A stretch of 64,000 nt of DNA from Streptomyces anulatus (GTDB lineage: Bacteria; Actinomycetota; Actinomycetes; Streptomycetales; Streptomycetaceae): positions 1-64,000 of the forward strand of contig NZ_JOEZ01000007.1 in assembly GCF_000721175.1 (NCBI RefSeq), written 5' to 3'. Numbering within the stretch: position 1 is the first letter of the stretch; the number at the start of each line of letters is the position of its first letter. The translations under genes and the position numbers were made by a program. Positions 26,404-54,526 of this stretch are shown in pieces. The notes under the pieces were generated by a model that was not told the origin of the DNA, made no database searches, and saw only the letters and a program-made list of their open reading frames with translations.

Positions 26404-27045
26404 TCATGCGGATTCGGGCGGTTGCGGGTAGAGGCGCCGCTCGTACTCGGGACCGTAGCGGTGTTCCAGCTCGTCCTGCGGGGTGTCGGTCCGCTCCGTG
26501 GCGTGGGCGATCAGGGCCCGCGAGGGCACGGCGTCCGGCGCCCAGCTGGAGGGGTCCCAGAGCCGGGCGCGCAGGAAGGACTTCCCGCAGTGGAAGTAGA
26601 CCTCCTCCACCTCCACGAGCAGGGCGAGCCGGGGCCTGCTGTTCCGGACCGTCATGAGGTCGAAGAACGGCGCGTCCCGGAGCAGCCTCGCCCGGCCGTT
26701 GATCCGCAGTGTGTCCGGTCTGCCGGGCACGACGAACGCGAGGTCCACCCGTGGGTTGTCGAGTACGTTGCGCCAGCTGTCGACCCGGCGGTTGCCCGGC
26801 CGGTCCGGGATCGCCAGGGTCGTCTCGTCCATGACATGGGCGAACCCCGGCGGATCGCCCCTGGGCGAGACGTCGCACGTGCCGTCGGCCGCCGCCGTCG
26901 CGAGCAGGCAGAAGGGAGAGCGGGCCAGCCACTGGCGGTCCACGTCCCGGAGCGTCGCCGACGCCTTGTCGAACACCCGGCGCGAGGCCGGTCCGACCAC
27001 CTCGTGCAGTTCCTCCGGGGAGGTGATCTCGGAGTAACTCACCGA
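26404..27045 (-). CDS. FMN-dependent PPOX-type flavoprotein (MSMEG_1061-like)
   Basis: This protein has 213 residues from GTG 27045, overlapping the preceding ligase stop by seven bases. A split-barrel flavin-binding domain is evident: CLLATAAADGTCDVSPRGDPPGFAHVMDETTLAIPDRPGNRRVDSWRNVLDNPRVDLAFVVPGRPDTLRINGRARL, the pattern of pyridoxamine 5'-phosphate oxidase-related proteins. EEVYFHCGKSFLRARLW is the C-terminal signature of the MSMEG_1061 subfamily. Such proteins bind FMN, F420 or haem and reduce small substrates. It is the last gene of the 20-gene operon. Its role may be a redox tailoring step; the substrate is unknown. Confidence 0.8.
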   Translation of the reverse strand, partial: SVSYSEITSPEELHEVVGPASRRVFDKASATLRDVDRQWLARSPFCLLATAAADGTCDVSPRGDPPGFAHVMDETTLAIPDRPGNRRVDSWRNVLDNPRVDLAFVVPGRPDTLRINGRARLLRDAPFFDLMTVRNSRPRLALLVEVEEVYFHCGKSFLRARLWDPSSWAPDAVPSRALIAHATERTDTPQDELEHRYGPEYERRLYPQPPESA

Positions 27046-28286
27046 CCCGTCCCGGCCGCCGCGCCCTCCCCGGTGACGACGACCGTCGAGGCGCATACCT
27101 CGTCACAGGTGGCCAGGGCCGCGTCGGCGTCGGTGCCGACCGCTATCACCTGGCCGATCCGGTCCCAGCTGGATCTGAGCGCGGCCACCTCGTCCCCGGC
27201 GGACACCTGGAGAGCCAGCTCCACGACCCCCTCCAGGGCGCGGGCCTCGTCGACGCCCTCGATCCGTGACACCACCCCGGGCTCGGCGGTCAGGAAACGG
27301 GTCGCGGCGGCCCGCGCCAGTGGGGGCCGCCCGGCCGGGGCCGGCAGTCCGGGGCACGGCCAGGCGACCGTGTACGCCTCCATGTCGAAGCCGTACGCCT
27401 CCTCCACCAGGTCTCTGATCCGGTCGCCGCCAGGCCGGTTGTGGGACTCGATCACCCGGGGCCCGTCCGGGGAGAGCCGCAGCTCGGTGTGGGTGGGGCC
27501 GTGCGTCACCCCCACGGCGTCCAGGAACTCCACGGCGGCCGCCTCGAGGGCGCGTTCGGCGTCCGCGTCGATCCGGGCCGGGATCACATGGCCCGCCTCC
27601 ACGAAGTTGGCGTCGGTCAGCTTCTCCGTGACGGCGACGACCACGTGCCGGCCCTCGAAGGTGAACGCCTCGACGCTGAACTCGGGCCCATCGACATAGG
27701 CCTCGGCGATGAAGCGGTCCAGCGGGAAGTACTGGACGAACTGGTGCTCGGAGGAACGCAGTTCGCGGATAAGGTCCCAGGCCGCGCCGACTTCCCCGGG
27801 CCCGCGCACCAACTGGACGCCGAGGCTCGCGATGCCGTCGACAGGTTTCACGATGAACGGGTAGCCGTGCGCGGCGCCGAACGCCTCCAGTGCCGCCCGG
27901 TCGGTCACCTCGGCCGCCGGCACGGTGGGAGCCCCGACGCGGGCGAGGTGCTCGCGCATGCTCAGCTTGTCCCGGAGCCGACGTGCGACCTTGTGGGAGA
28001 CGCCGCCGAGACCCAGCAGGTCGTTGATCCGCCCGGCGACCTCCACGCCCGCCTCACCCGTGGTGGCCACCCGGGTGAAGCCGTAGACCTTGTGGGCGGC
28101 CGCCACGACCGGCTCGACCACGGACCAGTCCGCGAAGTCGACGAGGAAGGCCGCGTCGACCAGCTTCGCGTGCTCGGGGGTGAACTGCCCCGGCTGCTGG
28201 AGGTACACGACACCGAGGCCCTGCTCCACGGCCTTGCGTACGTTTTCGATCCGGCCGCCGATGATCAAGACTCGTTCTGCTGACAT
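27039..28286 (-). CDS. ATP-grasp carboxylate-amine ligase 1
   Basis: This protein has 415 residues from ATG 28286. After a Rossmann-like N-domain (RVLIIGGRIENVRKAVEQGLGVVYLQQPG) comes the ATP-grasp core: KLSMREHLARVGAPTVPA, YPFIVKPVDGIASLGVQLV (ATP-binding Lys in the VKP loop), FIAEAYVDGPEFSVEAFTFEGRHV, and HTELRLSPDGPRVIESHNRPGGDRI with the Mg-binding E and N. The family forms amide bonds through acyl phosphates and builds small peptides such as dapdiamide and rhizocticin. It is one of three homologous but divergent ligases in this operon and is separated by 64 bp from ligase 2. The substrates cannot be read from sequence. Confidence 0.9.
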   Translation of the reverse strand: MSAERVLIIGGRIENVRKAVEQGLGVVYLQQPGQFTPEHAKLVDAAFLVDFADWSVVEPVVAAAHKVYGFTRVATTGEAGVEVAGRINDLLGLGGVSHKVARRLRDKLSMREHLARVGAPTVPAAEVTDRAALEAFGAAHGYPFIVKPVDGIASLGVQLVRGPGEVGAAWDLIRELRSSEHQFVQYFPLDRFIAEAYVDGPEFSVEAFTFEGRHVVVAVTEKLTDANFVEAGHVIPARIDADAERALEAAAVEFLDAVGVTHGPTHTELRLSPDGPRVIESHNRPGGDRIRDLVEEAYGFDMEAYTVAWPCPGLPAPAGRPPLARAAATRFLTAEPGVVSRIEGVDEARALEGVVELALQVSAGDEVAALRSSWDRIGQVIAVGTDADAALATCDEVCASTVVVTGEGAAAGTGR

Positions 28287-28350: not shown

Positions 28351-29589
28351 TCAGGCCGGGGCGCGGGTGATCTCCACACGGGCGGTCGTCCGCAACCGCT
28401 CGGCCAGGGAGACGAGTTCCGTCGCCCCCGGGCAGGCGAGCACCGCGTAGGCCAGCCGGTCCCCGGAGTTCTCGGCGGGACGCACGGCCGTGCCGGGTGC
28501 CAGCCGGGCCGCATGGTGGACCACGTCCTTCTGGGCGGCCCAGTCCGACAGGTCCAGCGCGGCGAGGACACCGGCCCGATCGGTGCCCAGGAACAGGCTG
28601 CCCGCGGAGCGCGCGGGTTCCCGGCCGGCCGGCGGCAGCCGCGGCGGCTCGCCCAGGGCCATCCGCAGGCAGGCCTCGTACACGTCGAAGTCGTGCGCCA
28701 GGGAGATGATCTCCAGGATGTGGTCGCCCGGGGTGCGCACCGCGACCTCCATGATCACGAGGTCGTCGTCGGCGCGGGCCCTGAACTCCAGATGCGCGAT
28801 CCCGGTACCGAGGCGCAGGGCGGCCACCACACCGCGGCACAGCTCGTCCGCGGCCTTCCGCAGTACCGGGTGACGGGCGCCGTGGCCGGCCTCGTGGAAC
28901 AGCTCCACGAAGAACGGGGTTCCGGTGGTCTCCTTGCGGGTCAGGTTGGTGAACAGCACCTGCCCGTCCCGGACCAGCGCCTCGACGCTGTACTCCGGCC
29001 CCTCGACGTAGCCCTCGACCAGCAGGGGGCCCTCGTCGTCGCGGCGGCGCACGGCGTCCCGCCACTGCTCGGGGGTGTCGACCCGCTCGACCCCCATACT
29101 GCCCTGCATGGACACGGGCTTGACGACCACGGGCAGTCTCTCCAGGGCCCACTCGGCCGCGTCCGACAGCCGTACCGTGTGCCGGTGCGCGGGTTGCGGC
29201 AGGCCCGCGCGGTCAAACTCGCCGCGCTGCATCGCCTTGTTGCGGGAGACCGTGGCGGCGTCGAGGCCCGGCCCCGGCACACCGAGCCGGTGCTGGAGGA
29301 TCGCCGCGGCGAGCACGTGCGGCTCGGCGAACCCCAGCACCGCGTCCGGAGCCAGCCGGTGGGCCAGTGTCATCGCCGGGGGCAGCCACGACTCGTCCCG
29401 GGCCGCGACACCCTCCACCGGCTCGAAGTCGACGACGCACGGGAACCGGGGGGCCAGTTCGGCGTGCCGGGCGACGGTCTCCACCAGGCCCACCCGCAGG
29501 TCCATCCGCTGGGCCGCGCGGAGATAGCCCTCTGCCATGACGCCGCCGCCTACCAGCACCATGGACCGTTGCGTACCACTCAGCGACAT
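28351..29589 (-). CDS. ATP-grasp carboxylate-amine ligase 2
   Basis: This protein has 412 residues from ATG 29589, overlapping the condensation-domain gene by ten bases, with GGAG upstream. N-domain: MVLVGGGVMAEGYLRAAQRMDLRVGLVE. ATP-grasp core: RNKAMQRGEFDRAGLPQPAHR, LPVVVKPVSMQGSMGVERVDT, LLVEGYVEGPEYSVEALVRDGQV, and IAHLEFRARADDDLVIMEVAVRTPGDHI. In the last motif the metal-site Asn is replaced: EVAVRTPGDH instead of E-x-N-x-R-x-G. That replacement may shift metal binding or substrate choice and is worth testing. It probably couples a carboxylate and an amine in building the phosphonopeptide. Confidence 0.88.
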   Translation of the reverse strand: MSLSGTQRSMVLVGGGVMAEGYLRAAQRMDLRVGLVETVARHAELAPRFPCVVDFEPVEGVAARDESWLPPAMTLAHRLAPDAVLGFAEPHVLAAAILQHRLGVPGPGLDAATVSRNKAMQRGEFDRAGLPQPAHRHTVRLSDAAEWALERLPVVVKPVSMQGSMGVERVDTPEQWRDAVRRRDDEGPLLVEGYVEGPEYSVEALVRDGQVLFTNLTRKETTGTPFFVELFHEAGHGARHPVLRKAADELCRGVVAALRLGTGIAHLEFRARADDDLVIMEVAVRTPGDHILEIISLAHDFDVYEACLRMALGEPPRLPPAGREPARSAGSLFLGTDRAGVLAALDLSDWAAQKDVVHHAARLAPGTAVRPAENSGDRLAYAVLACPGATELVSLAERLRTTARVEITRAPA

Positions 29590-31022
29590 CTCGACTCCTG
29601 ATGTGTCGGTTGTGACTCTCTCACCATGTGCCGCAGCTCCTCCGCGGTCACCTCCCGGGTCGCTGCCGCGCACAGCAGCCGCTCCAGCGCGGCCATCCAG
29701 TGCTCGGCCCAGCGGGGGGTGTGCACCCGGGTGTCCACCTGGAGCACCAGCCGGATACCGGACTCGCTCACGTCGGCGCTCAGATAGCGGGTGGACCGCC
29801 AGACCAGATCGCTGGGAACCCAGCGGGTGACACCGGCCGCGGCGGACTGCTCCAGCTCCGCCGCGACGACGTCGCGGCGCAGCAGGGCGCTCGCCCGGGG
29901 CCGGTAGTTGAACGTGGGCGTGATGTCCAGGCGGACTCCCCGCTCCTGTTCGGCGGCACGGTGCAGCGCGGCCAGCCGGTCCGGTGGGTACGAGCCGGAG
30001 CGCAGTGCTCCCAGAGTGGCCGCGGCGGTGGCACCGACCAGCTCGGAAAAGGCCGAGCCCGCCACCGGCACGCAGAACGGCACGGGCTGGGAACAGGGCA
30101 CCACGGCGTTGACGGTCTCGGGGCGCGACCGGTTGGCGGCGAGCAGCCGGAGGTACCCCGTGGGGCTGTCCGCGAGGTGGGCGTCGACCGCGACCATGGC
30201 AGCCGCGAGCACGGTGGCGACGCTCTCCCCCGTGCGCAGCGACACGGCGCCGGCCGCCAGGTCCAGCGCGGGCGAGGTACGGGACAGGAACCGGTACCGG
30301 TCGGCGAGGAGGGAACGGTCCGGGACGTCCTGGGCGGGGAGCGCCGCCGGCATGGCACGGAGGACGTCGGCCGCTCGGCGCAGGGCACGCTCCGTCGTGC
30401 GACGGGCCGGCTCGGCAGCTTCGGCGGCGGCCTGTTCGCGAGGACTGAGGCCCGCGTCCCGGCTCCGGGCGGGCGGCCACTCGGGATGGCGTACGGCGAC
30501 GGCGGAGACGAGGTGGTCGGTGACCGGCAGCAGAGCGAACGCGTCCACGGCGACATGGCTGAACACCAGTGCCAGGAAACGCGGCGAGCCCGTACGGCCG
30601 ATCAGTGCCGCGCGCACCGGCCACTCCTCGCAGACCTCGAACGGCGTCCCGGCCAGCCCGTCCAGCACGGCGGCGGCCACCACCGAGGTCTCCCCGTCGT
30701 CGGCCGCGTCGTGGACGGCGAGGCGCAGGGTGCCCTCGGCGTGGACGCGCTGGGCGGGCCCGGCCGTCGCGTCGGCCGGGCCGCGGTCGACCGTGCTGCG
30801 CAGGCCCTCGAAACGGTTCAGCAGGTCCCGCAGGGCCGCCACGACGTCCTGTTCGCCCACGCCGGGCCGCAGTTCGTAGAGCCTCCTGATGGCGAGCCCG
30901 CGCCCCGATGGCCGGGCGGCGTCCGTCTCGGCCAGGTAGTACCGCTGGCTCCAGGTGAGTGGCGCCCGGTGTGCCTCGCCCGCCGCGAAGCACACCGGGC
31001 GGTAATCGGGGGTGGTCGGCAC
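29580..31022 (-). CDS. Free-standing NRPS condensation-like domain with degenerate active site
   Basis: This protein has 480 residues from GTG 31022, five bases after the stop of ligase 3. It shows condensation-domain landmarks: LTWSQRYYLAE (C1-like), RFEGLRSTVD (C2-like), and SHVAVDAFALLPVTDHL at residues 155-171 for the HHxxxDG core motif. The first His is Ser, the catalytic second His (156) and the Asp (160) are kept, and Gly is Ala. Together with a free adenylation domain and carrier protein in the same operon it forms a dissociated minimal NRPS module. It may form an amide or ester on the carrier-bound amino acid, or release it onto a soluble acceptor such as the phosphonate. Confidence 0.7.
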   Translation of the reverse strand: MPTTPDYRPVCFAAGEAHRAPLTWSQRYYLAETDAARPSGRGLAIRRLYELRPGVGEQDVVAALRDLLNRFEGLRSTVDRGPADATAGPAQRVHAEGTLRLAVHDAADDGETSVVAAAVLDGLAGTPFEVCEEWPVRAALIGRTGSPRFLALVFSHVAVDAFALLPVTDHLVSAVAVRHPEWPPARSRDAGLSPREQAAAEAAEPARRTTERALRRAADVLRAMPAALPAQDVPDRSLLADRYRFLSRTSPALDLAAGAVSLRTGESVATVLAAAMVAVDAHLADSPTGYLRLLAANRSRPETVNAVVPCSQPVPFCVPVAGSAFSELVGATAAATLGALRSGSYPPDRLAALHRAAEQERGVRLDITPTFNYRPRASALLRRDVVAAELEQSAAAGVTRWVPSDLVWRSTRYLSADVSESGIRLVLQVDTRVHTPRWAEHWMAALERLLCAAATREVTAEELRHMVRESQPTHQESRCR

Positions 31023-31027
31023 GACGG

Positions 31028-32308
31028 CTAGCCCCCGACCGCGGACTCGTCCACCGGCGACCAGGTGAAGGTCAGCCTCCCGCCCGCCGCCACGGCGCGG
31101 CCGAGCGCCTCGTCGCGGTCGGCTCCCTCGGCGATGATCCAGGCGGCGCGGTCCCGGTTCGACCCGTTGGCCCGGTAGACCATGCCCGGTTGCACGCCGG
31201 GACGCATGTGCACCTCGTGCACGCCCTCCACGGCCTGCGCGTCGGCGACGCCGTCGATGGCGTCCAGGCGGCCGAGCGGCGCGGACATCAGGAAGTGGAC
31301 GATCGCGGTGCGGTCGCAGACGACGTTCAGGTCGGGGGTGGCGCCCAGCAGGGCGGTCATGTGGAGGCGGCACATGTCGACGCCGCTCGCGATCCGTACC
31401 GCTTCGGGGATCCGGTCACCGGCGATCCGCCCGTTGACCTCGATGATCCGGGCGTCCTTGCCGTCGGCAGTCAGCTTGAGCTCGACGTGGGCGGGGCCCC
31501 AGGTCAGCCCGATCGCCTTGACGGCCTGCTCGGCCTTCTCGACGAGCAGCCGTTCCCGGTCACCCGTGACCGCCGCCGGGAAGATGTGGCCCATCTCCAG
31601 AAACAGCGGGGGCGGGCTGCAGATCTTCTCGGTGAGGCCGAGGACCTTGCCGTGCATGACCTCCGCGGAGTACTCGGCGCCGGGGACGTACTCCTCGACG
31701 ACCACCCGGGGGGTGACCCGCTGGCCGAGGTAGTCGCCGATCCCCATGATCTCCCGGGTGATCACGCCGACCTCCTTGGCCGTCTCGCACCGGCGGACCC
31801 ACAGACTGCCGGTGAGGTCCAGCGGCTTGACCACCACGGGGAACCCGATGGAGGACGCGGCGGACGCGGCCTCCTCCGCCGACGAGCAGACCTCGAAGCC
31901 CGGGTTGAGGCCCGGCGTCGCGGCCATCGCGGCACGCATGGAGGCCTTGGAGCGGCAGGCGGCGACGGCCGCCGGATCGGGGCCGGGCAGCCCCAGCCGT
32001 GCGGCCACCTGGGCGCCCATGTCGCAGTAGTACTCGTACACCGAGGCGACTCCGACGAGTTCGCCGTCCGCGGCGATCTCCCGGCAGGCGTCGGTGACGG
32101 CGGCGACGTCGTGGGTGTCGCAGGCGCGGACCTCCACGCCCAGCTCGGCGTAGTCGCGGATCAGTGAGGGCGCCATGGCTGCGGGCCGGGCCGCCACCAC
32201 GACGGGTGTCACGCCCTGCTCCAGCAGGAAACGGGCGCAGTCCTGGCCCGCGCCGGTCAGGGGGGACTCGACGAAGACCACGTAACGGGGAGTCTTCCGG
32301 TCGGACAT
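31028..32308 (-). CDS. ATP-grasp carboxylate-amine ligase 3
   Basis: This protein has 426 residues from ATG 32308. N-domain: YVVFVESPLTGAGQDCARFLLEQGVTPVVVAAR. ATP-grasp core: RSKASMRAAMAATPGLNPGFEV, FPVVVKPLDLTGSLWVRRCE, VVVEEYVPGAEYSAEVMHGKVLGLTEK, and HVELKLTADGKDARIIEVNGRIAGDRIP, with intact E-V-N-G-R. The C-terminal region VEGVHEVHMRPGVQPGMVY resembles the tail of dipeptide-forming ligases such as BacD or DdaF. It follows the MFS gene by 49 bp and precedes the condensation-domain gene by 5 bp. It is the most canonical of the three ligases. Substrate not known. Confidence 0.9.
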   Translation of the reverse strand: MSDRKTPRYVVFVESPLTGAGQDCARFLLEQGVTPVVVAARPAAMAPSLIRDYAELGVEVRACDTHDVAAVTDACREIAADGELVGVASVYEYYCDMGAQVAARLGLPGPDPAAVAACRSKASMRAAMAATPGLNPGFEVCSSAEEAASAASSIGFPVVVKPLDLTGSLWVRRCETAKEVGVITREIMGIGDYLGQRVTPRVVVEEYVPGAEYSAEVMHGKVLGLTEKICSPPPLFLEMGHIFPAAVTGDRERLLVEKAEQAVKAIGLTWGPAHVELKLTADGKDARIIEVNGRIAGDRIPEAVRIASGVDMCRLHMTALLGATPDLNVVCDRTAIVHFLMSAPLGRLDAIDGVADAQAVEGVHEVHMRPGVQPGMVYRANGSNRDRAAWIIAEGADRDEALGRAVAAGGRLTFTWSPVDESAVGG

Positions 32309-32357: not shown

Positions 32358-33614
32358 TCAGGAGGAGGGGGCCGGGTCCGGAACCGCCCGTGGCTCCTCG
32401 GCGGGCAGGTCGCGCATCCGCACCAGGCGGGACAGGAGCAGCCACAGGACGCCGGCGGTCATGCCGACGCCCGCGACGAGCAGCCCGCCGCGCAGGCCGA
32501 TCCACTCGCCGAGGGCGCCGCCGGTGAGCGAGCCCAGCGCGAGGATGCCCCAGACGATGAAGCGGACGCTGGCGTTCATCCGGCCCAGCATGTCCGGCGG
32601 GCACAGGGCCTGCCGGATGCTGACCTGACCGACGTTGTAGACGACGATGCCGAAGCTGACGGTGAACCAGGGCACGGCGAACAGCGCGATCCCCCACCCG
32701 CCGTGGGTGAGCGGAATGAGCAGGGTGGTCGGTACGGTCACCAGGTACGCCAGCCACATGACGCGGACCTGCCCGAACCGGCGGGCGAGGCGGCCGGCCG
32801 CCGCCGCGCCGAGGATGCCGCCGAGTCCGCTGACCGCCATCAGGACGCCGACGACGGTGCCGGAGAGCTTCAGCTCCTCGACCAGCAGGAGCATCATCAG
32901 CGGCAGCATGACCGCGTAGAAGAAGTTGTACGTCGCGGCCGAGCCGGTGATGGCCCGGAACACCGGCTGCCGCAGCACGAAGCGCAGACCGCTGCTGATC
33001 TCGGCCGCCATCCGGGGCCGTTCCCCGCGGGGCGGCCGCTCCTCGACGGTGCGTATCCGGGTCACCAGCAGCGCCGACAGCACGTGGCCGACCGTCTGGG
33101 AGGCCACGGCGAGCGTGGCGCCCAGGAGCTGCACGAGCGAGCCGCCGAGGGTCGGGCCGGCGAGCCGGGCCACCGCGTTGGTGCTCTCCAGCTTGGCGTT
33201 GCCCTCGACGAGGCGGGCGCGGCCCACCACGGCCGGGATGTACGACTGGTAGGCGATCTCGTAGAAGGCGGTGGCGAAGCCGATCGCCAGGGTCGCCGCC
33301 ATCAGCACGGTGAAGTCCACGCGGTCCAGGGCGAACCCGATGACCAGGAACAACAGGAAGAGCGCGCGCAGCGCGTCGCAGGCGATGAGGATCGGCCGTC
33401 GGCGCATCCGGTCGACCAGCGTGCCCGCCGGCAGGCCGATGAGGAGGAAGGCGATCGTCTGCGCGGCCTGGAGCAGCCCCATCTGGAGCGGGGTGGCGGC
33501 CAGCATCGTCGCGGCCAGGAGGGGCAGTGAGACCCGGCTCATGTTGGCGCCGAACGTACTGGCCGTCTGGGCCGCCCAGAAGAATCGGAAGTCCCGCTGC
33601 TTGATCAAGGACAT
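32358..33614 (-). CDS. MFS exporter of the cluster
   Basis: This protein has 418 residues from ATG 33614. About twelve hydrophobic helices start with QRDFRFFWAAQTASTFGANMSRVSLPLLAATMLAATPLQMGLLQAAQTIAFLLIGLPAGTLVDRMRRRPILIACDALRAL, the MFS_3 (EntS/TetV-like) pattern with G-x-L-x-D-R-x-x-R-R between helices 2 and 3. The family exports siderophores and antibiotics by proton antiport. Its position in the middle of the biosynthetic operon, 7 bp after the TldE gene, points to export of, and resistance to, the product. Confidence 0.9.
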   Translation of the reverse strand: MSLIKQRDFRFFWAAQTASTFGANMSRVSLPLLAATMLAATPLQMGLLQAAQTIAFLLIGLPAGTLVDRMRRRPILIACDALRALFLLFLVIGFALDRVDFTVLMAATLAIGFATAFYEIAYQSYIPAVVGRARLVEGNAKLESTNAVARLAGPTLGGSLVQLLGATLAVASQTVGHVLSALLVTRIRTVEERPPRGERPRMAAEISSGLRFVLRQPVFRAITGSAATYNFFYAVMLPLMMLLLVEELKLSGTVVGVLMAVSGLGGILGAAAAGRLARRFGQVRVMWLAYLVTVPTTLLIPLTHGGWGIALFAVPWFTVSFGIVVYNVGQVSIRQALCPPDMLGRMNASVRFIVWGILALGSLTGGALGEWIGLRGGLLVAGVGMTAGVLWLLLSRLVRMRDLPAEEPRAVPDPAPSS

Positions 33615-46923: not shown

Positions 46924-47888
46924 TGGTTCTCCAAGAGGTCCTGCGCGCCCCGGTGGTAGTGGCGCGTCACCCAGGCGTCGTTGTAGATCGTGTCGATGTA
47001 CCGCTCGCCGAGGTCGGGGGCGATGGCCACCGAGGTCCGGTCCGCGGAGCCGTGCCGCGCCAGCCACTCGGTGGCCGCGCTGATCACGGTGCCGGAGGAG
47101 CCGCCGAGGAGGACGCCGCGAGCGGCCAGGCGCCGGCACATGCGGATGGCGTCCCGCTCGTCGCCCCAGACGACCTCGTCCACGAGGGACGGGTCGATCA
47201 GCGGCATGGGTGTGCTCGCGCCCAGCCCCGGGATGTGCCGGGGACCGGGCGCCCCCGAGAAGTTCACCGAGCCGACGCTGTCGACGGCCACGATACGTAC
47301 GCCCGGCCGGTGTTCGCGGAAGTAGCGGGCGCAGCCCATGAGGGTTCCGCCGGTACCCGTGCCGATGAACAGTGTGTCGAGGTCCGGGAACTCCTTGGCG
47401 ATCAACGACGCCGTGTTCTCGTAGTGCGCGGTCCAGTTCGCCGGGTTCTCGTACTGGTTGAGCCAGACGTACCGGCGGTCCTGCGCGCAGCGCTGGCGCA
47501 CATGGGACTTGCGCGCGGCGAGGTAGCTGCCGGTGGCGTCCGGTTCGTCGACCACGACGACCTCGGCGCCGTAGGCCTTCATCAGGTCGGTGGCGGCCGG
47601 GTTGCACTTGGGGTCGGTCACGCAGACGAACCTGAGCCCCTTCGCCGCCGCGATGACGGCGAGCGCGACCCCGAGGTTGCCGGAGGAGGACTCGATCAGG
47701 ATGGATTCGGGGCCGATGGTGCCCTCGCGCTGAGCGGTGTTCACCATCCAGGCCGCGGGCCGGACCTTCACCGATCCCGCGAAGTTGAAGCCCTCGCACT
47801 TCAGGTAGAGGCGGCAGTCCAGGAGCCGCCGCAGATCGAGGTAGATCTCGCTGTCGAGGAGCTCGTCGGCCCCCGTGATGACTGTCAT
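46920..47888 (-). CDS. SbnA-like cysteine synthase-family enzyme (diaminopropionate biosynthesis)
   Basis: This fold-type II PLP enzyme has 322 residues from ATG 47888. DCRLYLKCEGFNFAGSVKVRPAAWMV contains the PLP Lys (K41). ESSSGNLGVALAVIAAAKGLRFVCVTDP binds the substrate carboxylate, and GTGTGGTLMGCARYF binds the PLP phosphate. SbnA condenses O-phospho-L-serine with L-glutamate to N-(1-amino-1-carboxyl-2-ethyl)-glutamate. The adjacent SbnB-like gene completes L-2,3-diaminopropionate synthesis. It starts 53 bp after pepM. GGSSGTVISAATEWLA closes the active site. A plain cysteine synthase is the alternative but is less likely here. Confidence 0.9.
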   Translation of the reverse strand: MTVITGADELLDSEIYLDLRRLLDCRLYLKCEGFNFAGSVKVRPAAWMVNTAQREGTIGPESILIESSSGNLGVALAVIAAAKGLRFVCVTDPKCNPAATDLMKAYGAEVVVVDEPDATGSYLAARKSHVRQRCAQDRRYVWLNQYENPANWTAHYENTASLIAKEFPDLDTLFIGTGTGGTLMGCARYFREHRPGVRIVAVDSVGSVNFSGAPGPRHIPGLGASTPMPLIDPSLVDEVVWGDERDAIRMCRRLAARGVLLGGSSGTVISAATEWLARHGSADRTSVAIAPDLGERYIDTIYNDAWVTRHYHRGAQDLLENQ

Positions 47889-47941: not shown

Positions 47942-48802
47942 TCACGCGTCGAGCTTTTGCCAGTCGGCCATCCGCTGGAGGTCGAAGATGTCCCGCACCG
48001 AGGCGATCTCCGATTCCAGCGCGGTGGTGTCGCCCGCCTCGTAGATGGCGCGGTAGGCGTCGCGCATGGCGGAGAGCGCGGCGCGCATGCCCTGGTTGGC
48101 GTAGATGACGACGGAGACGCCGGCCGCGCGTACCTCGTCGATGTGCCAGTCCGGGTAGGTGGTGGGGACGATGACCACCGGGACGCGGTTGTCCCACCGG
48201 TCCAGGAAGGAGACCACCTCGTCCTTGGTGCGCGCCTTGGAGTGGATGAGTACGGCGTCGGCGCCGGCGTCGGCGTAGGCGTTGCAGCGGTTCACCGCCT
48301 CCTCGACGCCCGCGCCGGAGATCAGGGCCTCGGTGCGGGCGATGAAGAAGAAGTCCTCGGTGGACTGCACGGCCTTGGCGGTCTGTATCTTGCCGGCGAA
48401 GGCGGGGATGTCGAGCAGCGTCTGGTCGCCGTTGGCGAAGCTGTTCATCTTCGGGAAGAGCTTGTCCTCCATGCACACGGCCGTGATGCCGGCGCTCTCG
48501 AACTCGTGGACCATGTGGGCCACGTTGTAGTTGCCGCCGTACCCGGTGTCGACGTCGGCGACGACGGGGATGTCGAGGGCCTTCTGGATGTTGGCGGCCG
48601 CCTCCAGGTACTCGGTCATGCTCAGGATGCTGGCGTCGGGCAGGCATCGGGAGGCCGACACCTCCAGGCTCGACGACCACACCGCCTGGAATCCGGCCTC
48701 CTGGGCCAGGACTCCGCTGAGCGCGTGGTGGGCGCCCGCGAGCCGCACCACGTCGTGTGCGGCGAGTACGGAGCGGAACGAGGGATAGCTGCGCTTGAGC
48801 AT
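47942..48802 (-). CDS. pepM: Phosphoenolpyruvate phosphomutase (phosphonate biosynthesis, first step)
   Basis: This protein has 286 residues from ATG 48802. It has the diagnostic EDKLFPKMNSF (112-122), matching EDKxxPKxNSF that separates PEP mutase from isocitrate lyase and methylisocitrate lyase. VVADVDTGYGG (81-90) holds the metal-binding Asp residues, and VWSSSLEVSAS the phosphate-binding Ser. It converts phosphoenolpyruvate to phosphonopyruvate, forming the C-P bond. The reaction is uphill and needs a driving step. The gene heads the 20-gene minus-strand operon and faces a hydroxyacid dehydrogenase across a shared promoter region, so that reductase probably supplies the drive. Confidence 0.96.
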   Translation of the reverse strand: MLKRSYPSFRSVLAAHDVVRLAGAHHALSGVLAQEAGFQAVWSSSLEVSASRCLPDASILSMTEYLEAAANIQKALDIPVVADVDTGYGGNYNVAHMVHEFESAGITAVCMEDKLFPKMNSFANGDQTLLDIPAFAGKIQTAKAVQSTEDFFFIARTEALISGAGVEEAVNRCNAYADAGADAVLIHSKARTKDEVVSFLDRWDNRVPVVIVPTTYPDWHIDEVRAAGVSVVIYANQGMRAALSAMRDAYRAIYEAGDTTALESEIASVRDIFDLQRMADWQKLDA

Positions 48803-48934: not shown

Positions 48935-48994
48935 AAGCTAGCACGGACCTGAGCATCGAAGTCAACGGCCTTGGCAATTTCTTGCCAAGGCCGT
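48935..48994 (-). promoter_or_regulatory. pepM promoter with TTGGCAA palindrome
   Basis: A perfect inverted repeat, ACGGCCTTGGCAA at 48965-48977 and its complement at 48982-48994 with a 4-bp spacer, is the strongest symmetry of the region. On the minus strand TTGCCAA begins 12 bp before a -35-like TTGACT (48965-48960); TAGCTT (48940-48935) is a -10 candidate with a 19-bp spacer. The same heptamer and 12-bp offset occur at the peptide gene. Confidence 0.6.
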
Positions 48995-49010: not shown

Positions 49011-49017
49011 CTTTGAC

Positions 49018-49968
49018 ATGACCTATCGAGCCCGCGTCGTCGTACTGGACCCCGTTTCCCCCAGCGCCCTTGCGGACCTGGAACAGGACCATGAGGTCGT
49101 GGTGCGCCTGCACCCAGGCCATGACGAACTCCTCGGACTGGCCGCCGACGCCGACGCCCTCGTCGTACGCAGCGGTGTGACCATCACCGGCGACGTCATC
49201 CGTTCCGGGCGCCGCCTGCGAGCGGTGGCGAGGGCCGGCTCGGGGACCGACAACATCGACCTGGACGCCTGCCGCGAGGCGGGAGTGCAGGTGTTCAACT
49301 TCCCAGGCGTCTCCGCACCCGCCGTCGCCGATCTGGCAGTCGGCCTCATGCTCGCCGTGACCCGCAACATCGCCCTCGCCGACCGGCAGGTTCGCGGCGG
49401 CCAGTGGAACAAACCCCGGCTTGCCGGGCCGGGCCTCGCGGACCGGGTGCTCGGCGTGGTGGGCCTCGGCCCGATCGGCTCCCGGATCGCCAGGCTCGGC
49501 GCGGCGTTCGACATGCGTGTCCTCGCCGCCGTGGACCGCGTCACTCCGGCCCGCGACGAGGAACTGCGCGGCCGCGGGATCAAACGCGTCCCCCTGCCCG
49601 ACCTTCTCGACGCGGCCGACATGGTCTGCCTCGCCGTACCCCTCACCGACCGGACCAGGAACCTCATCGGCGCCGGGGAACTGGCCCGCATGCACACCGG
49701 CTCCTACCTCATCAACGTCTCCCGCGGAGGCGTCGTCGACGAGGACGCCTTGCTGCGCGCGCTGGAGGACGGAGTGATCGCCGGCGCCGCCCTCGACGTG
49801 CACGGGCAGGAGTCCGGCACCCCGGCGCTGGCCGCGCTGGACAACGTGGTGCTCACCCCGCACCTCGGCGCCACCACCTCCGACGCCCAGGAACGGGTCG
49901 GGCGGCTGCTCGCCGCGGACCTGCGCGCCGTCCTGGCCGACGGCCGGGCGACGAGCAGGGTGTGCTGA
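49018..49968 (+). CDS. D-2-hydroxyacid dehydrogenase, candidate phosphonopyruvate reductase
   Basis: This protein has 316 residues. The NAD fold VLGVVGLGPIGSRIARLG (GxGxxG) lies at ~140-158. Catalytic residues of the D-isomer family are in NVSRGGVVDEDALLRAL (Arg/Glu environment) and LTPHLGATTSDAQ (His). It resembles phosphoglycerate dehydrogenase without the ACT domain. Facing pepM across the shared promoter, it most likely reduces phosphonopyruvate to phosphonolactate, which would pull the PEP mutase equilibrium. A phosphonopyruvate reductase of this kind is reported for valinophos (VlpB, from memory). It is the first of five plus-strand genes. Confidence 0.85.
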   Translation: MTYRARVVVLDPVSPSALADLEQDHEVVVRLHPGHDELLGLAADADALVVRSGVTITGDVIRSGRRLRAVARAGSGTDNIDLDACREAGVQVFNFPGVSAPAVADLAVGLMLAVTRNIALADRQVRGGQWNKPRLAGPGLADRVLGVVGLGPIGSRIARLGAAFDMRVLAAVDRVTPARDEELRGRGIKRVPLPDLLDAADMVCLAVPLTDRTRNLIGAGELARMHTGSYLINVSRGGVVDEDALLRALEDGVIAGAALDVHGQESGTPALAALDNVVLTPHLGATTSDAQERVGRLLAADLRAVLADGRATSRVC

Positions 49969-49970
49969 AC

Positions 49971-51074
49971 ATGGGGCCGAACTCCGCCGGTACCGGGACC
50001 GCCGGACCGAAGACGATGAAGGCGGCGGTGCTCACCGGCCGTCGCACCATCGCCCACCAGGACACCGCCACCCCCGGCCACGGCCCCGGAGAGCTGCTCG
50101 TCCGGGTCGACGCCACCGGGATCTGCGGGTCCGACCTCGCCGCCTACCGAGGCACCCACCCCTACAAGACGGCACCCGCAGTCCTCGGCCACGAGTTCTC
50201 CGGGACCGTGGTGGCCGTCGGCGAGGAGGTAACCGGCTTCGCCGCAGGGGACAGGGTGTGCTCGGCGGCCTTCTCGCACTGTGACGCCTGCGCCGAGTGC
50301 CTGAGCGGCGCACCCCACCTGTGCACCCGGAAACTGAATCTCAGCCACCTCGACTGGACCGGCTCCTTCGCCGAACTCGTCGCCCTGCGGCCCAACATGG
50401 CCCATCGCCTGCCCCCCGGCCTGCACCCCGTGGCCGGCGCCCTCGTCGAACCGCTCTCCATCGGCCTGCACGCGGTCCGGCTCGTCGGCGAGGGCGCCGG
50501 CCGCGGCGTCCTCGTCCTCGGCTCCGGCACGATCGGCCTCAGCTGCCTGATCGCCGCCCGGCAGCTCGGCCACGCCGCGGTGGTCTGCGTGGACATCGGG
50601 CCCGAGAAGGGCGGACTGGCACGCGGGCTCGGCGCCGACGCCTACGTCGACGCCCACGAGGGCGACCCGGTGCCCGCGGCGCTGGAGGTCCTGGGCGGTC
50701 CGGCGGACGTGGTGGTGATCGCCGCCGGCTACCCCGGGGTCACCGACCAGGCGCTGCGCGCGGTGCGGCCCGGCGGCGACATCGTGATCGTCAGCTACTT
50801 CGAGGACCGGCACCCGGTCGACCTCAACGCGCTCGTCGGACGTGAAGTGACCGTGCACGGATCGGCGCTGTCCACCCCCCGCGACTTCACCGAGGTGATC
50901 GACCGGCTCGCTGCCGGGACCCTCGACGTTCTGCCCATGGTCACCCACAACTTTGCGCTCGCCGAAGCCGGTTCGGCACTGGGCCTGATGGACCGGGCCG
51001 ACGTCCCCACCGGCAAGATCATGCTGCATGTGACCACCGACCAGCACGAGTTCACGAACGGATGGAGCCAATGA
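49971..51074 (+). CDS. Zinc-dependent medium-chain alcohol dehydrogenase
   Basis: This protein has 367 residues from ATG 49971, two bases after the previous stop. VDATGICGSDLAAYRGTHPYKTAPAVLGHEFSGTVVAVG holds the catalytic-zinc Cys and His-Glu. CDACAECLSGAPHLC is the four-Cys structural zinc loop. VLVLGSGTIGLSCLIAA is the NAD site. It resembles sorbitol/threonine dehydrogenase-type enzymes that oxidise a secondary alcohol. In the pathway it might oxidise the 2-hydroxyl of a C3 phosphonate to a ketone for the PhnW-like transaminase; this order is speculative. Confidence 0.87.
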   Translation: MGPNSAGTGTAGPKTMKAAVLTGRRTIAHQDTATPGHGPGELLVRVDATGICGSDLAAYRGTHPYKTAPAVLGHEFSGTVVAVGEEVTGFAAGDRVCSAAFSHCDACAECLSGAPHLCTRKLNLSHLDWTGSFAELVALRPNMAHRLPPGLHPVAGALVEPLSIGLHAVRLVGEGAGRGVLVLGSGTIGLSCLIAARQLGHAAVVCVDIGPEKGGLARGLGADAYVDAHEGDPVPAALEVLGGPADVVVIAAGYPGVTDQALRAVRPGGDIVIVSYFEDRHPVDLNALVGREVTVHGSALSTPRDFTEVIDRLAAGTLDVLPMVTHNFALAEAGSALGLMDRADVPTGKIMLHVTTDQHEFTNGWSQ

Positions 51075-52168
51075 ACGACGGCATACGGGCAGCGGTCATC
51101 GGAGGAACCGGCTACACGGGCGGTGAAGTGTGCCGCCTGTTGCTGGGGCACCCGGGGGTCGCCGAGATCCTGCCGACCTCCCGCCACGAGGACTCCTTCG
51201 AGCGGACCCACCCGAACCTCCTCGGCTCCGGGCTGCGGTTCCACGACGCCGACGAGGTCACCGCGGCCGCCGGCGAACTGGACGTCGTCTTCCTGTGCAC
51301 ACCGTCCGGCGAGGCCATGCGGCGGGCGCCCGGACTGATCGGGGCCGGGGTCCGCGTCATCGACCTCAGCGCCGACTTCCGGTTCGCCGACCCGCAGGCG
51401 TACCGGGCGGCGTACGGCACCGAGCACACCGCCCCCGAGCTGCTGCCGGAAGCGGTGTACGGCGTCACCGAGTTCCACCGGGACCTGCTGCCCGACGCCC
51501 GCCTGGTGGCGAACCCGGGCTGCTACGTCATCACGGCGCTGCTCGGTCTCGAACCGCTGCTGTCCGCGGGCCTCGCCGATCCCGGCGCCCTGCTGCACAT
51601 CGCGGCGGTCAACGGGACGACCGGCGCCGGGGTCAAGCCCCGCACCGAGATCCTGCACGCCGAGGTGTTCGGATCGATGCTGCCGTACAGCCTCCAGGGC
51701 CACCGGCACGCGCCCGAGCTGGAGGACCGGCTGTCCGGTCCGGCCGGCGGGCCGGTCACCGTCGACCTCAGCACCGCGCACGGCCCCTTCGCCCGCGGCA
51801 TCCACATCCAGGCGAGCGTCCGCGTCCGCGAGGACCTGCGCGAGGAGCTCTCGCGCGATCTGCTCCTCGCCCGCTACACCGAGCGCTACGGTGCCGGAGC
51901 TGAGGGCGAGTTCTTCGTCCGCGTCAACGCCGAACCTCAGCTCGGCGGCCTCACCGGCAAGGACTACCGCAGGTACCCGGGCGTCGCCGGGGTGGTCGGG
52001 TCCAACTTCTGCCACATCGGCGTGGACTACGACGCCCGCCGCGGAATCGCCAAGGTCGTTTCCGTCAGCGACAACCTGGTCAAGGGCGCGGCGGGTTCAG
52101 CCATACAGAACATGAACGTGATGTTCGGGCACGACGAGACGACCGGGCTGCGCACCTATGGCCTCTGA
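51071..52168 (+). CDS. ArgC-like acyl-phosphate reductase (N-acetyl-gamma-glutamyl-phosphate reductase family)
   Basis: This protein has 365 residues from ATG 51071, overlapping the previous stop (ATGA), with GGAG upstream. AAVIGGTGYTGGEVCRLLLGHP is the NADP fold; ARLVANPGCYVITALLGLEPLL carries the nucleophilic Cys (C151); HRHAPELE has the general-base His region. ArgC reduces an acyl phosphate to an aldehyde. No other arginine gene is near, whereas a PGK-like gene follows with an 11-bp overlap. I infer it reduces a phosphonolactyl phosphate to the C3 aldehyde, replacing glyceraldehyde-3-phosphate dehydrogenase in a glycolysis-like reverse sequence. Confidence 0.88.
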   Translation: MNDGIRAAVIGGTGYTGGEVCRLLLGHPGVAEILPTSRHEDSFERTHPNLLGSGLRFHDADEVTAAAGELDVVFLCTPSGEAMRRAPGLIGAGVRVIDLSADFRFADPQAYRAAYGTEHTAPELLPEAVYGVTEFHRDLLPDARLVANPGCYVITALLGLEPLLSAGLADPGALLHIAAVNGTTGAGVKPRTEILHAEVFGSMLPYSLQGHRHAPELEDRLSGPAGGPVTVDLSTAHGPFARGIHIQASVRVREDLREELSRDLLLARYTERYGAGAEGEFFVRVNAEPQLGGLTGKDYRRYPGVAGVVGSNFCHIGVDYDARRGIAKVVSVSDNLVKGAAGSAIQNMNVMFGHDETTGLRTYGL

Positions 52169-53408
52169 CAGCGGGTGGGCCGACCCGCTCGACGGCGTAC
52201 CGCTCCTGAGCACACAGGACTTCACCCCGGGCGAACGCTGGATATTCTCGGCCGGGTTCAACGTGGACGCGGCCCTCACCAGCACCGGCCGGATCGACAG
52301 CGAACTGGCCGACCTGCGACGGCTCTCCGACGCCGGCGTGCGTGTGGCGGTGTTGTCCCACCAGGGCAGCCACCACGACGGGAGCGCGACCCCCCTGGAC
52401 CACGTCGCCGGTCACCTCTCGCGGCGGTTGGGCCGCCAGGTGCGCTACGTCCCCGAGAACGCCACGGACGCGGCGGTACGGGCCGCCGAGGCGCTGGCGC
52501 CCGGTGAGATCGCAGTGTTCGGCAACACCCGCCACCACGCGGGGGAGGAACGGGGTGACCCCGAACTGGCCCGGCGGTTCGCACTGCTGGGCGACGCTGT
52601 CGCCGTGGGCGGCTTCTCCAAGGCCCACCGCGCCCACGCCTCCAACACCGGTGTGCTGCGCCTGCTGCCGGGCCACGCTGCACAGAGCCTGGAACAGGAG
52701 ATCCGGTTCCTCGCTTCCTGGGCGAGTCCCCCGCGGGGGACGTTCCGCGCGGCCTCGCTCGGCGGGCGCAAACCCGAGAAGACCCTGGTGGGCCTGGTCC
52801 ACGCGATGCGCACCTGCGACCTGGTGGTGCCGGGTGGAGTGGTGCTCAACACCGTGCTGCGCGCCCGGGGCCACGACCTCGGCGCCTCCGATCAGGGCAG
52901 TCGGCCCGATGCCTGCCTGGAGGCCGTACGCGGTGTCCTGGACGCACCGGCCAGGGCCCGCCTGCACCTGCCCAGGACGGTGTGGGTGGCACCGGTGGAC
53001 GGGAGGCGGATCGTGGGTGAGGCCCGGCCCGTCGCCGTCGTCCGCGGAGTGCCGACCGGACACGCCGTCGTGGACTTCGACCTGGAGCCGTGGGCGGCCG
53101 AGGCACTGGCCGGCGCCGGCTCCGCCGTGCTGGCCGGGACCCCCTCCCGGTACCTCGACGGGCAGACCCGGTCCGCGGAAGCCATCCTGTCCGCCCTGTC
53201 GCGGACCTCCGGGGCAGCGCTGCTGCTCGGTGGCGACACGGTGGCCGAACTGCCCTGGGCGGGACCGGTGTCGACGGGCGGAGGCTCGGCGCTGCAACTG
53301 CTCGCCACCGGCACCTGCGCGGTGCTCGACGCGCTGCGCGACAACCCCCGCCGCACCGGGGCCCGTACTGAGCCGCCCCGCGGTGTCAAGGATGGAGTGA
53401 GCACATGA
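52158..53408 (+). CDS. Phosphoglycerate kinase-like enzyme
   Basis: This protein has 416 residues from ATG 52158, overlapping the ArgC-like gene by 11 bp. PGK landmarks survive in altered form: SAGFNVDAALTSTGRI for RxDFNVP, VLSHQGSHHDGS for SHLGRP, VFGNTRHHAGEE for the ENxRF loop, VGGFSKAHRAHASNTGV for NDAFGTAHRAHAS, LGGRKPEKTLVGL for LGGAKVxDKI, GGDTVAEL and VSTGGGSALQLLATG for the nucleotide loop. The conserved RADF Arg and Asp are replaced (A-G-F). It is divergent enough to have a new substrate. 3-Phosphonolactate is a close analogue of 3-phosphoglycerate, so phosphorylation of its carboxylate is the natural prediction. Confidence 0.9.
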   Translation: MASDSGWADPLDGVPLLSTQDFTPGERWIFSAGFNVDAALTSTGRIDSELADLRRLSDAGVRVAVLSHQGSHHDGSATPLDHVAGHLSRRLGRQVRYVPENATDAAVRAAEALAPGEIAVFGNTRHHAGEERGDPELARRFALLGDAVAVGGFSKAHRAHASNTGVLRLLPGHAAQSLEQEIRFLASWASPPRGTFRAASLGGRKPEKTLVGLVHAMRTCDLVVPGGVVLNTVLRARGHDLGASDQGSRPDACLEAVRGVLDAPARARLHLPRTVWVAPVDGRRIVGEARPVAVVRGVPTGHAVVDFDLEPWAAEALAGAGSAVLAGTPSRYLDGQTRSAEAILSALSRTSGAALLLGGDTVAELPWAGPVSTGGGSALQLLATGTCAVLDALRDNPRRTGARTEPPRGVKDGVST

Positions 53409-54526
53409 AGCTGGAACTCGGAGTTCCCACCCACGTGGAGTTCGGCCGCGGTGAGCTGGACCGGGCCGGGACCCACGCGAGGGAGCTGGGCACGCACGCG
53501 CTCCTGGTCACCGGGCGGAACGCGGCACGCTCCCACGGTTATCTGGACCGCGTCGTGACGTCCCTGGAATCCGCCGGGGTGCGCGCCACGGTCTTCGACC
53601 AGCTGTCGGCCAACCCGCGGTCCGACGAGGTGGACGAGGCGACCGCACTGGCCCGCGCGAAGGGCTGCGACCACGTCGTCGGCCTCGGCGGCGGCAGCGC
53701 CCTGGACGCGGCCAAGGGGGTGAGCGTCACCGCGCCCGCCGGCGGCAGCGTGCGGGAGCTCATCGGCGAGACACTCGGCCCGCAGGCGCCCAGGCTGCCA
53801 CTGCTCGCCGTGCCCACGACGGCGGGCAGCGGATCCGAGGTCACCAAGGGGGCGATCATCACCGACACGGTGCGCCACTTCCGCTCCGGCATCCGCGGTG
53901 ACGCCGTCTTCCCGCGCACGGCGATCGTCGACCCCGACCTCATCGCGTCGCTGCCGCGCCCGATCATGGCGGAGACGGTCTTCGACTCGTTCGCCCACGC
54001 CGTCGAGGGCTGCGTCGCGGCCCGCGCGGACGAGGCGAGCCGGGCCCGCGCGCACCAGGCCATCGAGCTGATCGCCGCGCATCTACCGAAGATGCTGAGA
54101 GGAGAGGACTCTCCCGAGGCCCGTGAGGCGCTGTGCCGGGCGTCCCTGCTCGGGGGCGTGAACGTCGCCAACGTCAGCACCTGCCTGCCCCACCGGCTCC
54201 AGCAGGCCATGGGCTCGCTGCCCGGGATCGACCTCTCCCACGGCCGGGGCCTGGCGGTGCTGTACCCGAGCTGGCTGCGGTACACCGCACCCCTGGTGCC
54301 GGAGGAGTTCGCCGCGGTCGCCGAACTGATGGGCGGCGACACCGTCCACGACGCGGTGGGCGGGCTTCTGGCCTCGGCGGGCCTGGCGGCCCGCCTGCGC
54401 GACTGCGGGGTGGCCCGGGGCGACCTCGACCGGCTGGTCGACGGCGTGACGGGCAATCTCGGCAACGACCCGGCGGGCCAGGTGGACCGCGACTATCTGT
54501 TCACCCTGTACGCCGAGTCGTTCTGA
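53405..54526 (+). CDS. Iron-containing (group III) alcohol dehydrogenase
   Basis: This protein has 373 residues from ATG 53405, overlapping the PGK-like stop (ATGA). VVGLGGGSALDAAKGVSV is the NAD motif; TTAGSGSEVTKGAIITD, FDSFAHAVEGCVAARADEASRARAHQAI and CLPHRLQQAMGSLPGIDLSHGRGLAVLYP supply the metal-binding Asp and His ligands. The family includes phosphonoacetaldehyde reductases of phosphonate pathways (PhpC, DhpG, FomC). Here it would reduce the aldehyde made by the ArgC-like enzyme, yielding 2,3-dihydroxypropylphosphonate. It is the last plus-strand gene of the cluster. Confidence 0.9.
   Translation: MKLELGVPTHVEFGRGELDRAGTHARELGTHALLVTGRNAARSHGYLDRVVTSLESAGVRATVFDQLSANPRSDEVDEATALARAKGCDHVVGLGGGSALDAAKGVSVTAPAGGSVRELIGETLGPQAPRLPLLAVPTTAGSGSEVTKGAIITDTVRHFRSGIRGDAVFPRTAIVDPDLIASLPRPIMAETVFDSFAHAVEGCVAARADEASRARAHQAIELIAAHLPKMLRGEDSPEAREALCRASLLGGVNVANVSTCLPHRLQQAMGSLPGIDLSHGRGLAVLYPSWLRYTAPLVPEEFAAVAELMGGDTVHDAVGGLLASAGLAARLRDCGVARGDLDRLVDGVTGNLGNDPAGQVDRDYLFTLYAESF

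Follow-up and report, generated by a model that had tools for sequence, protein, structure and literature searches.

Two groups of described phosphonate systems come closest to the locus considered here. In the first, N-oxygenases of the PcxL/FzmM/CreE group carry out two or three hydroxylations of an amine nitrogen, and PcxL takes 2-aminoethylphosphonate (AEP) as its substrate (PMC10404684). The corresponding enzyme of S. regensis WC-3744 is 58% identical to PcxL (PMC10404684, Table 1); K. setae is tied to hydroxynitrilaphos and Streptomyces sp. NRRL S-481 to phosphonocystoximate, the cluster families being related (PMC12723261). The second group is that of valinophos and phosphonothrixin: 2,3-dihydroxypropylphosphonate (DHPPA) and VlpF are named in PMC12723261, as are Saccharothrix ST-888 and K. 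purpeofusca together with phosphonothrixin, and reduction of phosphonopyruvate to phosphonolactate by a 2-hydroxyacid dehydrogenase is a known branch (PMC12871164). The locus itself lies in a window of 64 000 nucleotides of Streptomyces anulatus (the whole stretch of DNA that was analysed), where a phosphoenolpyruvate (PEP) mutase gene, pepM, heads 20 minus-strand genes and faces five plus-strand genes (g23–g47; Table 1). We read it, with a probability of roughly 0.6, as a cluster of the phosphonocystoximate/hydroxynitrilaphos family in which the C2 route, to phosphonoacetaldehyde by phosphonopyruvate decarboxylase (Ppd) with hydroxylation by TauD, has been exchanged for a five-gene C3 module like that of valinophos and phosphonothrixin. 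Exchange of the first steps may have given the product another carbon head.

Families were assigned by Pfam, NCBIfam and PDB sequence searches, which placed nearly all cluster genes; active-site motifs are present in the PepM, SbnA, TldD, adenylation (A) domain, carrier, ArgC-like, Zn- and Fe-alcohol dehydrogenase (ADH), P-loop and amino-acid-kinase proteins. The initial annotation placed a PEP mutase with its diagnostic motif at the operon head, and this holds for g42. The motif, as EDKx5NS, is present in all 31 PepM rows compared. A reading of g42 as methylisocitrate lyase, in a cluster that does not serve phosphonates, is scarcely conceivable: the prpB model TIGR02317 does match it at 172.6 bits (cut-off 354.4), and no protein of the window's genome exceeds that cut-off, but the PEP mutase model TIGR02320 gives 305 bits, slightly below its cut-off of 319.6, and phmmer gives PEP mutase 5unc at 4.8e-83 vs 2.1e-29 for the best methylisocitrate lyase. 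In the PepM tree g42 stands with EDKx5NS proteins and apart from E. coli PrpB; it thus does not cluster with methylisocitrate lyases, the placement that the initial annotation had named as its own refutation. Four rows of this tree (G190, G006, G262 and G042) are badly trimmed, with 32–34% of columns filled, 15 of its 49 inner branches are left open and its outgroup sits on long branches; it is used for this placement and one other, given below. On sequence grounds the locus is confirmed as a PepM-dependent phosphonate gene cluster. A further PF13714 match in the genome, at C48:12069, was considered as a sign of a second phosphonate cluster and rejected; it is only 27% identical and lacks the motif, and is therefore not PepM. 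A plasmid search with PepM returned 409 records, all below 60% identity.

A codon-usage gene model gave the same outer limits as the initial annotation, with 20 minus-strand genes from 26404 to 48802 whose neighbours overlap by 1–10 bases or sit at most 66 bases apart, a divergent gap of 215 bases, and five overlapping plus-strand genes from 49018 to 54526. The same 25 genes stand in the same order in Streptomyces sp. NRRL S-455 (G260) at 82–94% identity, apart from g23, of which about half matches, at 55%, so the arrangement is not due to chance.

Relatives were collected chiefly through the N-oxygenase g33. A search of 392 genus genomes was positive in 51 at 1e-30, the window's own included, and 17 of these, again with the window's, were read more widely; a family-wide search was positive in 20 of 394 genomes at 1e-120, and seven new ones were read. 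Further loci came from genomes with the plus-strand module or a close PepM, so that each locus was chosen for g33, g46 or PepM. G340 and G290 gave partial g33 matches and enter no count.

Five types can be told apart. Type A comprises the window, S-455 and Streptomyces sp. I6, whose locus starts within g33 and, as far as it reaches, holds ten minus-strand genes, the five plus-strand genes and g48. All eight type B loci (G020, G295, G127, G113, G540, G475, G614 and G404) hold PepM, SbnA/SbnB, the A domain, NTP_transf_5, the FomA-like kinase, transaminase, N-oxygenase and mycothiol-type enzyme, together with a TauD dioxygenase and a split Ppd encoded by two genes. In none of the eight do g44–g47 occur, g31 and g36 were not found, and G127 alone has a generic 32% match to g43. 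The ATP-grasp ligases, condensation (C) domain and major facilitator superfamily (MFS) exporter are present at window-like identity in six (not in G540, and at 27–36% or not at all in G475) and TldD/TldE in five. Type C takes in seven loci that have, at about 50% identity, PepM and Ppd with the transaminase and N-oxygenase, and, as an eighth, G461. Type D, Gordonia sp. ABSL11-1, has PepM, g34, g33, g31 and g43–g47 on one strand at 54–70% identity, with g31 adjoining the C3 module, as well as an MFS exporter and a non-ribosomal peptide synthetase (NRPS) of A, peptidyl carrier protein (PCP) and C domains; no match to diaminopropionate (Dap), ATP-grasp or FomA-like genes was found in the 40 kb read. 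Type E (G241 and G093) has PepM, g43, g45–g47 and g48, without transaminase or N-oxygenase.

The PepM tree joins types A and B in a clade of 11 rows (96/85), the second placement for which it is used; types D and E, G343 and G372 stand around these in a 17-row clade (100/99). PepM of the window is 73–76% identical to that of the type B loci, a warning that PepM similarity, even when close, does not fix the head group. The initial annotation held that the gene combination matched no phosphonate cluster that could be named. This must be revised, as the core of the minus-strand operon is common to the eight type B loci and the plus-strand operon is a valinophos-/phosphonothrixin-like module. One of the core-sharing loci, G540, with a single PepM at 1e-25, we infer to be that of K. 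setae, which a published network analysis places with hydroxynitrilaphos and phosphonocystoximate. Two features of single loci may be added: in G540 (L178, 17752–19725) the FomA-like kinase and transaminase seem to form one open frame of 657 amino acids (aa), and G461 (L180/L181, about 10–31 kb) is intermediate between types, with pepM, Ppd and N-oxygenase beside homologues of g35, g36 and g31.

The evidence for an exchange lies in the distribution of Ppd and the module. Among 22 loci of types A–E, 16 have Ppd only, six the module only and none both. Nine further pepM loci lack g43, g45 and g46; eight of them have a Ppd-like match and G343 has neither. Over all 31 pepM loci read, the module is thus present in six, Ppd in 24, neither in one and both in none. 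No Ppd was found in the stretch read of any of the six module loci (window, S-455, I6, Gordonia, G241 and G093). Genome-wide, a search with one Ppd query at 1e-5 gave no match in the window's genome, S-455, I6, G241 or G093 and three weak partial matches (32–36%) in Gordonia; the same search found Ppd in all five Ppd-type genomes given (G020, G113, G127, G295 and G337). In G113 and G375 there is a stop or break inside the Ppd matches. We take the published phosphonocystoximate pathway to require Ppd. One mark of the family, a Ppd to supply the C2 aldehyde, is therefore absent at 1e-5 from both cluster and genome, and type A genomes have no visible source of phosphonoacetaldehyde.

The plus-strand operon encodes, by family searches, enzymes like phosphonopyruvate reductase, phosphoglycerate kinase (PGK), ArgC, Fe-ADH and Zn-ADH. 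The set could be a reversed glycolysis whose substrates are the phosphonate isosteres of 3-phosphohydroxypyruvate, 3-phosphoglycerate, glyceraldehyde phosphate and glycerol phosphate. The reductase of 2-hydroxyacid-dehydrogenase type, PGK-like, ArgC-like and Fe-ADH enzymes, together with PepM, make up the valinophos/phosphonothrixin gene set for DHPPA, matched here through the look-alikes G093 and G241, which are read against what we take to be the gene sets of the vlp and ftx clusters. G241 has, in addition, an acetolactate-synthase-like enzyme and a split transketolase, presumably phosphonothrixin-like traits, and G093 has an ATP-grasp ligase and is valinophos-like. At 1e-60, g46 was found in four of 392 genus genomes, all four with PepM within 11 kb, and its relatives include proteins named for Saccharothrix ST-888 and K. 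purpeofusca. A second ArgC, 42% identical to g45, is encoded elsewhere in the window's genome. For g44 there is a 54% homologue in G241; G093 has none inside its module, its one match, at 35%, lying some 11 kb away from g47. This suggests that g44 oxidizes DHPPA to 3-hydroxy-2-oxopropylphosphonate, a reaction that Bown and colleagues reportedly described in 2023.

In the proposed route, g42 would convert PEP to phosphonopyruvate and g43 would reduce this to phosphonolactate; g46 would form the acyl phosphate, g45 phosphonolactaldehyde and g47 DHPPA. Following oxidation by g44, the transaminase g34 would yield 2-amino-3-hydroxypropylphosphonate; alternatively, it might act on phosphonolactaldehyde to give 3-amino-2-hydroxypropylphosphonate. 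The amine would be N-oxidized by g33 to an oxime or further. Diaminopropionate from SbnA/SbnB would be activated by g39 on g37, and the parts joined by the C domain and ATP-grasp ligases. Phosphorylation by g35 and g36 may serve self-protection or activation, g32 may handle a mycothiol adduct, TldD/TldE may trim and g28 may export the product.

Gordonia offers the best independent support that g34 and g33 may act on the product of the module: transaminase and N-oxygenase accompany it there with no Dap match, and so go with the module in that locus too. Shared contigs point the same way, at least 21 (matched by equal size, which is a proxy) holding both a g33 and a g46 relative among the 120 listed for each; 119 of the 120 listed g43 rows entered the equal-size comparison.

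The N-oxygenase g33 is related to the aspartate N-hydroxylase 8cp2 and therefore to the PcxL/FzmM/CreE group. A PcxL/HpxL-type N-oxygenase beside an AEP-type transaminase and PepM, as in the window, is the other mark of the (hydroxy)phosphonocystoximate family, compared here through relatives of PcxL and HpxL; the N-oxygenase of WC-3744 we take to be HpxL. Type A and type B N-oxygenases are 57–61% identical and those of types C and B 44–50%. The N-oxygenases of G461, Gordonia, G301 and G100 are 55–59% identical to type B, and pairs inside type C also reach 57–60%. Nine of 120 listed relatives (P0201, P0209, P0210, P0212, P0213, P0214, P0226, P0227 and P0229; two of them named for Solirubrobacterales) unite PEP mutase and N-oxygenase in one protein of 982–1118 aa (PF13714 and PF13454). 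Three of these nine fusions are on contigs that match, by the same size proxy, those of listed g43 or g46 relatives.

Type A may instead be the published pcx cluster of NRRL S-481 in a related strain, with a C2 thiohydroximate as its product and a plus-strand operon that is accessory or serves a second phosphonate; we put this at a little under even odds. It is suggested because P0002, a g46 relative named for S-481, is 99.5% identical to the cluster copy of S-455, which has one PepM at 1e-25. Genomes hold one pepM each with three exceptions, S-481 not being among them (PMC12723261). The 58% identity of the WC-3744 enzyme to PcxL compares with the 57–61% between types A and B, and G540, with its single PepM, is of the Ppd/TauD type, in keeping with the link of K. 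setae to hydroxynitrilaphos (PMC12723261). In addition, phosphonocystoximate carries N-acetyl-cysteine (PMC13302981), which fits the mycothiol-type g32. However, no Ppd match was found in the genomes of the window (G000), S-455 or I6, which leaves AEP without a known source, and phosphonocystoximate does not require the Dap, NRPS and ATP-grasp genes. S-481 may carry another locus, one protein named for it having been compared; we know of no product for type A in that case. Since several other N-oxygenase pairs also fall at 55–60%, a value of 58% supports the identity with pcx and does not prove it.

If type A is the pcx cluster, the puzzle is a C2 thiohydroximate in a Ppd-free strain. The strain known to make phosphonocystoximate faces the same question, since the genome of S-455, which has the 99.5% identical cluster protein, gave no Ppd match. 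A C2 product would result if an N-oxidized C3 unit lost one carbon, or if N-oxidized phosphonoalanine were decarboxylated. The first, somewhat unlikely, has an N-oxidized C3 aminophosphonate, such as the oxime of 2-amino-3-hydroxypropylphosphonate, joined to diaminopropionate, with the C2 compound of S-481 a breakdown or detoxification product formed by loss of one carbon and mycothiol capture. If true, this would be a Ppd-free way into C2 oxime phosphonates. A literature search on N-oxidized C3 aminophosphonates gave, among the matches listed, only aminohydroxypropylphosphonate syntheses and nucleoside phosphonates, and no natural product. By the second, g34 would turn phosphonopyruvate into phosphonoalanine, and g33 would N-oxidize and decarboxylate this to phosphonoacetaldoxime. 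It would explain how a strain without Ppd arrives at a C2 product, phosphonoalanine is an isostere of the aspartate on which the homologue of g33 acts, and the PepM–N-oxygenase fusions speak for it. We nevertheless consider it distinctly unlikely: it leaves g43–g47 unexplained, the same g34/g33 pair accompanies Ppd in type B, and the known phosphonopyruvate transaminase, PnaA, belongs to the aspartate aminotransferase (AAT) superfamily and not to class V (PMC11867202).

Several points weigh against the exchange of head-group routes that we favour. The loci are not a random sample, and a class-wide search with g46 found one of 335 genomes, the window's own, and no further genome. In four loci whose N-oxygenase gene is complete (G301, G100, G586 contig 4 and G419), the stretch read holds no PepM, and for G301 and G100 a genome-wide search at 1e-25 found none either; relatives of g33 can therefore have another role. 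The exact C3 amine is ambiguous, because the Fe-ADH g47 would use up the aldehyde on which direct transamination depends. If the phosphonocystoximate of S-481, whose skeleton we take to be C2, comes from type A, a C3 amine is not in the known product. Finally, g34 is closest to AEP transaminases, which use the C2 aldehyde, and the substrate of the related PcxL is likewise a C2 amine (PMC10404684).

In G301 (L029/L030, 18572–22155 of the joined stretch) and G100 (L031/L032, 18183–21793), both genomes without a PepM match, a g36-type P-loop kinase (75–80%) is followed by the N-oxygenase (76–77% to g33) and then by a small gene of 106–110 aa with no Pfam family. The three may form a cassette.

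The diamino acid branch proposed by the initial annotation is supported, with SbnA and SbnB above their NCBIfam cut-offs and an acidic A-domain pocket kept in both cluster types. Read from core motifs, and with a position numbering that we take to be the usual one, every one of the 11 type A and B proteins has D, I, W, A, D and D at positions 235, 236, 239, 322, 330 and 331; the E278 stretch is matched in nine (not G540 or G475) and position 299 varies. These acidic residues suggest a pocket suited to a diamino acid. The A domain, carrier protein and three LAL-type ATP-grasp proteins were likewise recovered by family searches, as was the TldD/TldE pair, and the FomA-like kinase is a relative of FomA, though far below the FomA cut-off. 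The C domain is a weak match, a divergent condensation domain with the motif SHVAVDA and a score below the Pfam cut-off. With three ATP-grasp ligases and A, carrier and C domains, a phosphonopeptide is possible. N-oxidation of an aminophosphonate is, in our view, the more diagnostic step, and was missed earlier, as were g33 itself, the PhnW-type transaminase g34, the mycothiol-type g32, the P-loop kinase g36 and the sense of the plus-strand operon. A literature search pairing pepM with diaminopropionate and phosphonate found nothing, and a looser one had none with diaminopropionate among the matches listed; mycothiol paired with phosphonopyruvate gave a single match, on Pantoea.

Between the divergent operons lies a perfect inverted repeat. 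Its core occurs once per genome in all three type A genomes, always beside pepM, which makes it a candidate operator, a putative regulator-binding site; the type B locus G475 has a similar repeat with a 3-base spacer. No Rfam match at gathering scores was found within the window. Downstream of the module, g48 is probably a 26th cluster gene: homologues (61–90%) are near the module in S-455, I6, G241 and G093, with none in Gordonia.

Table 1. Genes and other features of the phosphonate locus (positions in the window)
Feature	Position	Strand	Basis
g23, PPOX-type FMN flavoprotein (MSMEG_1061 family)	26404–27042	-	TIGR04025 236 bits, cut-off 170
g24, ATP-grasp ligase with LAL_C2	27039–28286	-	PF13535, PF18603
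g25, ATP-grasp ligase with LAL_C2	28351–29589	-	PF13535, PF18603
g26, divergent NRPS condensation domain	29580–31022	-	PF00668 21.7 bits, below cut-off 30.6; SHVAVDA
g27, ATP-grasp ligase with LAL_C2	31028–32308	-	PF13535, PF18603
g28, MFS exporter	32358–33614	-	PF05977, PF07690
g29, TldE/PmbA-like subunit	33622–34926	-	PF19289; no HExxxH
g30, TldD-like metallopeptidase subunit	34923–36278	-	PF19289; HEACCH
g31, PhzG/PNPOx-like flavoprotein	36323–36964	-	NF038138 291 bits, cut-off 270
g32, mycothiol-dependent enzyme (maleylpyruvate isomerase fold)	37031–37744	-	PF11716, TIGR03083; PDB 2nsf 8e-7
g33, FAD/NADPH N-oxygenase, PcxL/HpxL/CreE group	37748–39976	-	PF13454; PDB 8cp2 E 3.5e-41, two stretches
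g34, AEP-type transaminase (class V)	40027–41145	-	TIGR03301 347.6 bits, cut-off 360.8 just missed; PDB 1m32 2e-60
g35, FomA-like kinase	41158–42063	-	PDB 3d40 E 2.8e-59; NF000338 211 bits, FomA cut-off 550
g36, P-loop (thymidylate-kinase-like) kinase	42060–42707	-	GSDGAGKST; PDB 2plr 1.6e-4; no Pfam family
g37, carrier protein	42704–42976	-	PF00550
g38, NTP_transf_5 nucleotidyltransferase-like	43035–44219	-	PF14907 149 bits; no PDB relative at 0.1
g39, free A domain, acidic pocket	44216–45865	-	TIGR01733 343 bits; pocket residues via core motifs
g40, SbnB (2,3-diaminopropionate synthesis)	45865–46923	-	TIGR03944 399 bits, cut-off 327
g41, SbnA (2,3-diaminopropionate synthesis)	46920–47888	-	TIGR03945 386 bits, cut-off 350
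g42, PEP mutase (PepM)	47942–48802	-	PF13714 195.9 bits; EDKLFPKMNS; tree
Perfect 13-base inverted repeat, candidate operator	48965–48994		core TTGGCAA-N4-TTGCCAA
g43, phosphoglycerate-dehydrogenase-like; proposed phosphonopyruvate reductase	49018–49968	+	PF02826; TIGR01327 278 bits, cut-off 454; context
g44, Zn-ADH; proposed DHPPA dehydrogenase (to 3-hydroxy-2-oxopropylphosphonate)	49962–51074	+	PF08240/PF00107
g45, ArgC-like acyl-phosphate reductase	51071–52168	+	TIGR01850 313 bits, cut-off 234; NPGCY
g46, PGK-like kinase; proposed phosphonolactate phosphorylation	52158–53408	+	PF00162; PDB 1vpe 3e-35
g47, Fe-ADH; proposed phosphonolactaldehyde to DHPPA	53405–54526	+	PF00465; metal-ligand motifs present
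g48, DUF402/FomD-like protein	54554–55165	-	NF049998 88 bits, cut-off 320

The favoured exchange of routes has the look of a clean module swap in the evolution of natural products, with similar tailoring behind two head-group routes, and predicts a C3 instead of a C2 amine and no dependence on Ppd. With the phosphonoalamides (pna) and other ATP-grasp phosphonopeptides the locus has in common ATP-grasp ligases, used in those systems to form peptide bonds (PMC11867202); unlike pna, it has an N-oxygenase, and a class V transaminase in place of the AAT-type PnaA. It resembles Gordonia sp. ABSL11-1 in PepM, g34, g33, g31 and g43–g47, whereas Gordonia has its A-PCP-C NRPS and MFS exporter and no match to the Dap, ATP-grasp and FomA-like genes in its 40 kb. 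With the vlp/ftx look-alikes G093 and G241 it shares PepM, g43, g45, g46 and g47, g48 nearby and, in G241, g44; it differs in lacking the split transketolase and acetolactate synthase and in adding the transaminase, N-oxygenase and Dap branch. Compared through G540-type loci with the hydroxynitrilaphos and (hydroxy)phosphonocystoximate clusters of S. regensis WC-3744, NRRL S-481 and K. setae, it has the same PepM, SbnA/SbnB, A domain, NTP_transf_5, FomA-like kinase, transaminase, N-oxygenase and mycothiol-type enzyme, but is without Ppd, TauD and EamA and carries g43–g47, g31 and g36.

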